The translations under genes and the position numbers were made by a program. A DNA stretch of 64,000 nucleotides from Pseudomonas lijiangensis (lineage in GTDB: Bacteria; Pseudomonadota; Gammaproteobacteria; Pseudomonadales; Pseudomonadaceae). Where the stretch lies: NCBI RefSeq assembly GCF_018968705.1, contig NZ_CP076668.1:5467001-5531000 (forward strand), in the 5' to 3' direction. Under the pieces are notes generated by a model. The model saw nothing but the letters and a program-made list of their open reading frames with translations, made no database searches and was not told where the DNA came from. Shown here piece after piece: positions 46,286 to 47,528 of the stretch. How positions within the stretch are numbered: the stretch's first letter is position 1; the number at the start of each line of letters is the position of its first letter.

Positions 46286-46328
46286 TTCGCGGATAAATCC
46301 GCTCCCACTTGATATGTGTGTGTGGGAG
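46286..46328. repeat. REP element and left half of an IS-split REP
   Basis: TTCGCGGATAAATCCGCTCC(CAC) is a complete REP unit right after hutG. A short spacer leads to TGTGTGTGGGAG, the first part of a second, inverted REP unit. The rest of that unit (CGAATTTATTCGCGAA) is found at 47498-47513 on the far side of the IS110 element, so the pair was split by the insertion. Confidence 0.85.
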
Positions 46329-46343
46329 ATTCTATGGTTGTGA

Positions 46344-47294
46344 TCAAGCCATAACCCACCCTTTGGTTTGATATTCGCTCTGATTCTTCATCAGGGCGAA
46401 TGCCACCCGAGCGAGTTTACGAGCGAGCATGACGAGCACTTGTGTGGTCGCTTTTCCACGGCTGCGATGATGGTCGTAAAACTCTTTCCAGGCACTTGAT
46501 CGGCTCGCGGACATGGCGGCGTTGTGCAGCAATCGGCGGATCTCCGAGCAACCTCGCTTGGTCAGGGATCGGCGGCCATTTTTTTGGCCTGAGTCAGTCA
46601 CCCTCAGGTCCATGCCCAAAAAGGCGATGTATGAATCGCTACTCGTGAAGTCGCCTCGGCTGTAAGCCATGACCAGAGCGGTCGCGGTCAGAAAACCGAT
46701 GCCTTCGACAGCTTGGCATCGGGCGACTTGCTCCAGCAGGCCGGCTTCGCGCAAGACCTCCTTGAGCTTCTTCTGGATCAACAGGTCCAGCCGCTCGATG
46801 GACTTGAGGAAAGCTGCGAAGGCGGCTTTCAAACTGGCGTCATTTGCCCAGCTCTGGGTCAGGCTGGTTTTGGCCTGAACCAGCGAAGCCCTGCGGCGCA
46901 GAAGGCTTTGCAGCTTGCCATAGACGGCTGGAGGCGGGGTCCAGGGGCGTAGATCTTCGCCTTCGTTTTTCAGAAAACGGGCCAGAAGCCGAGCATCGGA
47001 AGCGTCCGTTTTGCTACGACCACCAATGCCTTTACGGTAATTGCTCAGTTGAAAACCGTCGATGATGTAGACGTCAAAACCAGACTCGTAAGCCAGCTCG
47101 ACCAGATCGACGTGATAAATATTGGTCGCCTCAACAGCAATGGCGGTGGGCCTCGGCAACGTTTTGAGCCAGCGCTTTATGGCGGGCTTTTCATTGGCTA
47201 TCGAGGTGAGCAGATCCAGGTCTGCCTGATAGGTAACGAGTTCAATCTTGGCAACATCCACGCCCACGATTGACTGCGAAACGCGCATTGCCAT
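46344..47294 (-). CDS. IS110-family transposase (recombinase)
   Basis: A 316-residue DEDD recombinase. The RuvC-like N-terminal domain has Asp13 (GVDVAK), Glu55 (VEATNIYH), and Asp97 and Asp100 (KTDASDAR). A coiled-coil region spans about 125-190. The C-terminal Tnp domain has VEGIGFLTATALV (about 197-209) and TDSGQKNGRRSLTKRG, with the conserved SG serine near 235. All catalytic residues are present, so it is probably active. The ATG at 47294 is chosen over GTG at 47300 because GGAGA lies seven bases before it. Confidence 0.93.
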   Translation of the reverse strand: MAMRVSQSIVGVDVAKIELVTYQADLDLLTSIANEKPAIKRWLKTLPRPTAIAVEATNIYHVDLVELAYESGFDVYIIDGFQLSNYRKGIGGRSKTDASDARLLARFLKNEGEDLRPWTPPPAVYGKLQSLLRRRASLVQAKTSLTQSWANDASLKAAFAAFLKSIERLDLLIQKKLKEVLREAGLLEQVARCQAVEGIGFLTATALVMAYSRGDFTSSDSYIAFLGMDLRVTDSGQKNGRRSLTKRGCSEIRRLLHNAAMSASRSSAWKEFYDHHRSRGKATTQVLVMLARKLARVAFALMKNQSEYQTKGWVMA

Positions 47295-47324
47295 GGGCAC
47301 TTCTCCACGCTAAGGTTTTACGGC

Positions 47325-47485
47325 TTGAGGGGGTTCACCCAGAGGCGCAGGCTTGTTTCTATCGTCGCTTGAACGAAGCATTCTTTATCGGCGCTTTTGG
47401 TGGAAGGGGTGAGGCGAGGTCTCCCACGGTCTGTACTGTGGCTGCAGTCAGATGCGAATTGTTCGTCCCACCACCCCTTCAAGCT
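47325..47485 (-). ncRNA. Predicted bridge RNA of the IS110 element
   Basis: Read on the transposase strand, GAAGGGGTG (47480-47472) pairs with CACCCCTTC (47411-47403) in a 9-bp stem. Within it an inner hairpin (TCTGACTG with CAGTACAGA, one bulge) leaves two single-stranded arms. The 5' arm has AATTCGC (47460-47454), identical to the left target TTCG-C. The 3' arm has GTGGGAG (47427-47421), complementary to the right target CTCCCAC. A second loop has AAAGAAT (47386-47380), like the right-end ATAGAAT, and AACAAG (47357-47352), complementary to the left-end CTTGT. This is the target- and donor-guide layout of IS110 bridge RNAs. Exact ends are unknown. Confidence 0.72.
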
Positions 47486-47497
47486 CTACCATACAAG

Positions 47498-47513
47498 CGA
47501 ATTTATTCGCGAA
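47498..47513. repeat. Right half of the IS-split REP
   Basis: CGAATTTATTCGCGAA resumes the REP unit interrupted at 46328. It lies just downstream of the cadA stop, so the intact pair was once the boundary between convergent hutG and cadA. Confidence 0.85.
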
Positions 47514-47528
47514 AAGCTCCAACCCTGC

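Follow-up and report, generated by a model that had tools for sequence, protein, structure and literature searches.

A predicted bridge RNA with REP-matching guides in an ISPpu10-like IS110 element of Pseudomonas

Bridge RNAs are reprogrammable guides for the insertion of DNA. IS110 elements inserted in the REP sequences of Pseudomonas, namely ISPpu9 and ISPpu10, have been known since 2006, and 2-bp direct repeats were described for ISPpu10 from P. putida KT2440 (PMC1525189). According to an Extended Data legend, ISPpu10 is one of six elements with a predicted bridge RNA and target and donor guides (PMC11208160). ISPpu9 (IS110/IS492, P. putida) likewise resides in REPs and has a folded 5′ leader upstream of tnp; it differs from the present element in its direct repeat AG and its two regulatory small RNAs (PMC8450116), the likeness being drawn from the published description.

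The element discussed here lies in a window of 64,000 nucleotides, the whole stretch of Pseudomonas lijiangensis DNA that was analysed, and is, as ISPpu10, an IS110 element inserted in a Pseudomonas REP. Database proteins named ISPpu10 share 89% (over 82% of the query) and 72% identity with its recombinase; the comparison goes through proteins carrying this name, and the guide found here, AATTCG, fits the REP of its own host. The bridge RNA of IS621 from E. coli and its REP targeting have been described (PMC11208160). Our element shares with IS621 the CT core, the position of the bridge RNA at the left end, the order of target loop and donor loop, the assignment of the left guide to the bottom strand and of the right guide to the top strand, the REP target and a recombinase with DEDD and serine residues (PMC11208160, PMC11208158). 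The two recombinases are nevertheless distant from each other (76 bits to the PDB chain), and the right target guide matches seven nucleotides here and four in the IS621 structure. In addition, the outer stem seems to enclose both loops in our case, and the predicted folds are without a separate 5′ stem–loop. In ISPa11 (IS1111 group, P. aeruginosa) a Pseudomonas REP is also read by an RNA, the seekRNA; in ISPa11, however, the noncoding RNA lies downstream of the gene, the order of the guides is reversed and the element belongs to another group (PMC11187229).

We suggest, with a probability of about 0.93, that the element is of the ISPpu10 kind, that its left end encodes a two-loop bridge RNA whose donor loop would pair with the joined ends of the element itself, and that the recombinase would exchange strands at CT. 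Very probably the element makes a guide RNA that steers it to REPs, as predicted from its sequence. The covariation of guides and targets in general is already in print, as PMC11208160 relates the natural guides of IS110 elements to their target motifs. The earlier note on this DNA had thought that this particular REP-aimed RNA may not have been described. The RNA as such is new, but IS110 elements aimed at REPs are known from ISPpu9 and ISPpu10, and for the latter a bridge RNA has been predicted. Papers on guide and REP variation in Pseudomonas bridge RNAs were not evident from titles and abstracts, in a search that mostly left subscription papers and preprints aside. Thus, what is new here is this RNA as a further example and a test with host REP counts as an added confirmation, whereas the principle is already known.

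The element and the anatomy of its left end

The element and its surroundings comprise the following features, all on the minus strand.

46329..47497 (−), IS110-group insertion sequence, 1169 bp including the left CT core; its borders are set where the six copies of the genome diverge
46344..47294 (−), DEDD recombinase of 316 amino acids, with ATG at 47294 and GGAG upstream; the open reading frame listing began at GTG 47300
47496–47497 (−), left core CT; the right core CT is at 46327–46328
47498..47515 (−), left part of the interrupted REP (TTTTCGCGAATAAATTCG)
46322..46328 (−), CT core and right part of the interrupted REP (CTCCCAC)
46288..46308 (−), another REP next to the target, oppositely oriented

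The left junction reads CT followed by TGTATGG, the right junction AGAAT followed by CT. As is the layout of the IS110 group, the left noncoding end is long (203 nt before the start codon) and the right one short (15 nt after the stop codon), and no long terminal inverted repeats were seen by eye in the element. It is flanked by genes for an N-formylglutamate amidohydrolase and a P-type ATPase. CT is found at the left junction of all 155 copies that we collected from 46 Pseudomonas genomes and at the right junction wherever this was recognised; since the search patterns themselves contain CT, these counts establish the occurrence of CT and leave room for other cores.

The recombinase carries the Pfam domains DEDD_Tnp_IS110 and Transposase_20, which place it in the IS110 family, and scores above the cut-off of the NCBIfam model for IS110 RNA-guided transposases. 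In the PDB, ISCro4 and IS621 are the only matches at E ≤0.001. The residues E55, D97, D100, and S235 align to the EAT, KTD..D, and ESG motifs of IS621 and ISCro4; D13 was assigned by eye, outside the aligned stretch. Another IS110 recombinase, with 27% identity, is encoded four times in the same genome (G000:C1:56056, 804695, 2749099, and 5033746).

Intact REPs within the window served as the uninterrupted reference for the target, whose form CGCGAATAAATTCGCTCCCAC occurs at three other places, 52626 (+), 17426 (−), and 12139 (−). Six near-identical copies of the element are present in this genome, all of them inside REP sequences, with TTCG at the left and CTCCCACA at the right, so that the site reads TTCG-CT-CCCACA in six of six. 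Genome-wide we counted 139 sites RATTCGCTCCCAC and 197 sites YCGCTCCCAC.

One might argue that the element of the window is a relic and that its bridge RNA has lost its function. The left guide matches only five of six bases at two of the six sites, and the alignment of one of the six copies covers residues 1–284 of the recombinase only. Furthermore, relatives (e.g., locus L041) have a near-perfect hairpin (GGTTGAGGGCTTCCCCTCAACC) directly before ATAGAAT at their right end; in the window's element this hairpin overlaps the stop codon and, by eye, looks degraded. However, the reading frame of the recombinase is open, and the six near-identical copies are found at different REPs with identical 200-nt leaders, which suggests recent movement. 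We regard a relic as improbable.

The predicted bridge RNA has the parts listed below, which can be read directly from the letters of the minus strand.

47323..47497 (−), left end with the predicted bridge RNA, supported by comparative structure and covariance model matches
47472..47480 (−), 5′ arm of the target-loop stem, GAAGGGGTG, confirmed by a sequence check
47403..47411 (−), 3′ arm of the target-loop stem, CACCCCTTC, confirmed by a sequence check
47454..47460 (−), left target guide AATTCGC; with the following base, AATTCGC(A), it spans 47453–47460
47430..47452 (−), hairpin between the two target guides; two of its pairs have changes in both partners, one pair in 3 and the other in 1 of the 21 leaders
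47421..47427 (−), right target guide GTGGGAG
47419..47420 (−), AC, a candidate handshake guide in the target loop
47380..47386 (−), candidate left donor guide AAAGAAT
47367..47379 (−), donor-loop hairpin, a helix added by hand, in which 86.6% of the cells are paired and two-sided changes are confined to single leaders
47352..47357 (−), candidate right donor guide AACAAG
47350..47351 (−), CC, a candidate handshake guide in the donor loop

All sequences quoted in the earlier note are present on the minus strand, and its reading of the target loop is supported. The proposed 9-bp stem is perfect (GAAGGGGTG/CACCCCTTC) and topped by the hairpin at 47430–47452; the arm AATTCGC, said to equal the left half of the target, consists of the left target AATTCG plus the core C; and GTGGGAG, said to be complementary to CT and the right half, is the exact reverse complement of CTCCCAC (46322–46328). 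In simulations of a 185-nt leader under a first-order Markov null, both target 7-mers appeared in order within 60 nt once in 40,000 (2.5e-5), a figure for 7-mers that were picked after being seen. For the donor loop the agreement is weaker: AAAGAAT agrees with the right end ATAGAAT in six of seven positions and AACAAG complements CTTGT of the left end, but these matches fall behind those of the target guides and AACAAG then runs into mismatches.

Conserved structure, candidate donor guides, and a possible circle-junction promoter

Folding of the single leader sequence gave a z of −0.91, with 32 of 200 shuffles folding at least as well, and because of this z single-sequence folding was dropped as evidence. 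The two free arms proposed in the earlier note are both present in the sequence, but the single-sequence fold and the RNAalifold consensus each show the guide arms partly paired rather than open. By analogy to IS621, where this is known, the arms would open on the DNA inside the protein complex. The ordinary single-sequence fold weakens the structure as drawn, and the comparative evidence less so.

The comparative structure is based on an alignment (A1) of 21 of 25 distinct leaders, some of them slightly shortened at the 3′ end; left out were the leader of genome G090, which is without donor loop, and the near duplicates L051, L078, and L073. The structure tested has 28 pairs and was edited by hand: RNAalifold pairs touching the right-guide region and one other were removed, and the donor hairpin was added. 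Over the 21 leaders, 96.9% of the cells are paired, versus 39–51% when the partners are slid. Changes on both sides are found in 5 of the 28 pairs, a number reached by none of 500 shuffles and compared to 0 to 2 in the slid versions; as the leaders are related sequences, these shuffle counts overstate the independence. Extra pair types were equalled by 236 of the 500 shuffles, and two of the five helices are invariant and hence uninformative. RNAalifold's own consensus, in which the right-guide region is paired, has changes on both sides in 3 of 31 pairs and a small covariation term. In the aligned target-loop stem, 11 of the 21 leaders have A-U and 9 have G-C at one pair, and the base of the donor loop alternates between TCTACC/GGTAGA and TTCACC/GGTGAA (read from the printed arms). 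Thus, the left end, for which the earlier note had regarded the lack of a conserved fold as refuting, has a conserved paired structure with some compensatory changes; it contains two internal loops, whose arms the energy model does not predict to be free.

Rfam gave no match to the left end. A search of Pseudomonas genomes with a covariance model, as proposed in the earlier note, found matches in at least 74 of 398 genomes; this number is a lower bound, as stricter filters were applied for the 398 genomes. No similar bridge RNA was found at E 0.01 in plasmids (two query sequences) or phages (one query), and the matches of a protein search of plasmids were all below 60% identity. A search of genome contigs gave 13 loci, which were kept out of the counts. 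The 124-nt leader of locus L039 (G090) keeps the target loop, whereas the entire donor loop is absent; this copy is possibly dead or reliant on another copy. Eight genomes (G102, G214, G262, G277, G280, G344, G367, and G390) have four to six weak matches to the bridge RNA model each, six being the most that were scored, and in G102 the recombinase matches are weak only (best E 4.3e-8). Such genomes maybe harbor divergent bridge RNA units or units without recombinase.

The candidate donor guides match the ends of the element, which is consistent with donor pairing, and these ends are nearly constant in this clade. In the IS621 structure the handshake base after the right donor guide complements base 7 of the target (PMC11208158). 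The donor loop was readable in 152 copies, with three copies from G090 and G253 without readable motif left outside, and in 147 of the 152 the first handshake base of this loop is complementary to base 7 of the target; in 141 of these it is an invariant C with G. In G079 the target has C and the RNA G, a matching swap in 6 of 6 copies, and in five copies of G004 and G138 the handshake base does not pair. In the target loop, the first handshake base is A in 46 of 46 groups and fits, being complementary to the constant donor T adjoining the core; the second fits in 18 of 46 groups and is a misfit in the window's element.

The further course of events can be sketched after IS621. Excision would join the ends of the element into a circle, and a promoter formed across the junction would produce the RNA. 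This RNA would bring REP and circle together, with the donor loop pairing with the joined ends, and the recombinase would exchange the strands at CT. A candidate for such a promoter is TTGATC-17-TATGGT:

46342..46347 (−), possible −35 box TTGATC of the circle-junction promoter, at the right end
47488..47493 (−), possible −10 box TATGGT of the circle-junction promoter, weak in relatives

The candidate is weak, with 8 of 12 consensus bases, and in relatives the best −35 box has 3 or 4 of 6. A promoter scan of the linear sequence, which is blind to the circle junction, gave one plus-strand site at 46309–46338.

Guides and targets among the relatives

The left guide was defined as the six nucleotides ending two bases before TC[TC]GA; this rule was set by eye on the discovery set and then fixed. 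A shift by one base was allowed from the discovery swap test onward and was applied throughout the scoring of the held-out set. In the 22 families of the discovery set the left guide matches its own target at 5.31 of 6 positions and swapped targets at 3.99, and none of 100,000 permutations was as good; G185, whose left target is unlike the others, was excluded from this test. Outside the first 23 hosts there were 51 matched genomes, and 23 of these, taken from the best-scoring places listed, served as held-out hosts. They gave 78 later copies, to which 9 more from G124, G051, and G038 were added; G203 and a second copy of G334 lie at contig ends and were not fetched. For the held-out hosts, with 24 guide groups and the one-base shift allowed, the values are 5.19 for own and 4.50 for swapped targets, again with none of 100,000 permutations as good.

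Over the 155 copies, with the shift allowed, six of six positions match in 87 copies, five in 51, four in 13, three in 2, two in 1, and one in 1. Without the shift, 86 copies match at all six positions and 12 copies at one or none. Examples of guides and their targets are AGGCTCG at CAGGCTCG, AAGCTCG at CAAGCTCG, AAGCCCG at CAAGCCCG, AAGCCGG at CAAGCCGG, and AAGCCGCC at AAGCCGCC, in addition to the AATTCG of the window's element. The right guide is exact in 61 of 68 discovery copies and in 78 of 79 readable later copies, the latter count excluding G045 and copies without a recognised right end. It hardly varies because CTCCCAC hardly varies. In G093 right guide and target have changed together (GTAGGAG at CTCCTAC in 6 of 6 copies), and in G079 the guide GTGAGAG is found at CTCCCAC with one mismatch in 6 of 6.

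Thus, the target guides correspond to the two strands of the target around the core; the left guide varies with its target, with exceptions, and the right guide does so in one family (G093) but not in G079. The guide AAGCTCGT (G127, G005, and G382) is found at CAGGCTCG in 9 of 10 counted copies, though another variant fits better; its extra base may shift the register. The guide AGGCTCG is at CAAGCTCG in all six copies counted in G289, G204, and G266, as would be possible through a G-T wobble, and AAGCTCG at CAAGCCCG in two copies of G099 and one of G213 corresponds to a U-G wobble. The guide AGTTCG of G212 is spread across all three common variants. The fit is poor in G300, G244, and G090, and G185 is at an unlike site. 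At this locus (L047) CTCCCACATTTGGTAG flanks both sides of the insertion, unlike in other copies, and the guide misfits the left target. G289 has two guide variants one base apart in one genome; its four fetched copies (L140–L143) are all at CAAGCTCG.

The earlier note had proposed a bispecific target/donor plan aimed at a Pseudomonas REP, and had named arms of related copies that do not vary with, or do not match, their insertion sites as evidence against it. In the related copies the left arms mostly do vary with the sites, and this covariation together with the conserved fold supports the target side of the plan.

Guide matching and the supply of REP sites

The likeness of guide and target could also stem from host ancestry: each host would have its own dominant REP, and the element would simply land in the common one. 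In fact the guides match the REP repertoire of their hosts better than when they are shuffled between hosts (1 of 100,000 permutations as good), and in 22 of 37 groups the guide fits best the variant that is commonest in its host. We counted the three common REP left halves in the hosts and took these counts as the null. Of 134 insertions in the hosts entered with counts, 111 are at the three commonest variants; these 111, from 36 hosts, make up the choice test. Outside the test are 21 copies of six hosts (the window's own genome, G069, G079, G090, G093, and G009), left out because none of their insertions is at one of the three counted variants.

Of these insertions, 87 of 111 are in the variant that fits the guide best, whereas 62.7 are expected from the host counts (P 2.3e-11). 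The discovery set alone gives 33 of 40 with 27.0 expected (P 0.0047), the held-out set alone 46 of 62 with 32.7 expected (P 1.6e-6), and an earlier form of the test 30 of 36 with 23.1 expected (P 0.0011). Where the variant best fitting the guide is not the commonest one in the host, the guide is followed by 22 of 43 insertions, against 7.0 expected (P 2e-8). These P values treat the insertions as independent, and within one host the independence may be incomplete. The signal stays when wobbles are scored at half (0 of 200,000 simulations overall). In the discordant groups the preference rests mainly on G038 (6 of 6), G124 (5 of 6), G045 (3 of 3), G253 (2 of 2, at the rarest variant), and G215 (2 of 2); in G124 CAGGCTCG is about seven times commoner, yet five of six insertions follow the guide. 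With guide groups as the unit, the discordant cases divide into 10 above and 5 below the host share; this split is not significant by itself, and the ancestry explanation may claim it in its favor. Nevertheless, the insertions prefer the guide-fitting variant beyond what the host counts offer, and we consider it quite improbable that ancestry accounts for the likeness.

Least probable of all, and only by a little, is that the left end serves the transposase gene as a regulatory 5′ leader and that the protein alone picks the REP, the guide matches being incidental: for ISPpu9 a folded leader of this kind is reported, together with two small RNAs that control tnp (PMC8450116), but here the guides covary with the targets across families and in held-out hosts, and among the listed pairs of leaders that differ at six or fewer places outside the guide, 9 of 11 differ by one guide base. 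In the comparison of G010 or G123 with G159 the target differs by the same base as the guide; in that of G204 or G266 with G159 it does not. A role as leader may coexist with the bridge RNA.

Taking the left end as a bridge RNA, we see an even chance that the clade is a natural series of reprogramming, in which changes of single guide bases re-aim the RNA to the local REP variant between Pseudomonas species, some guides accept two variants by G-T or U-G wobble, and the handshake base follows, as in G079, whose six targets all have C adjoining the core. As the guide has varied among dozens of hosts with countable target variants, the rules of guiding, that is, wobble tolerance, length, and handshake base, become testable from existing genomes. 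Guide matching would also offer a reason why these elements reside in REPs.
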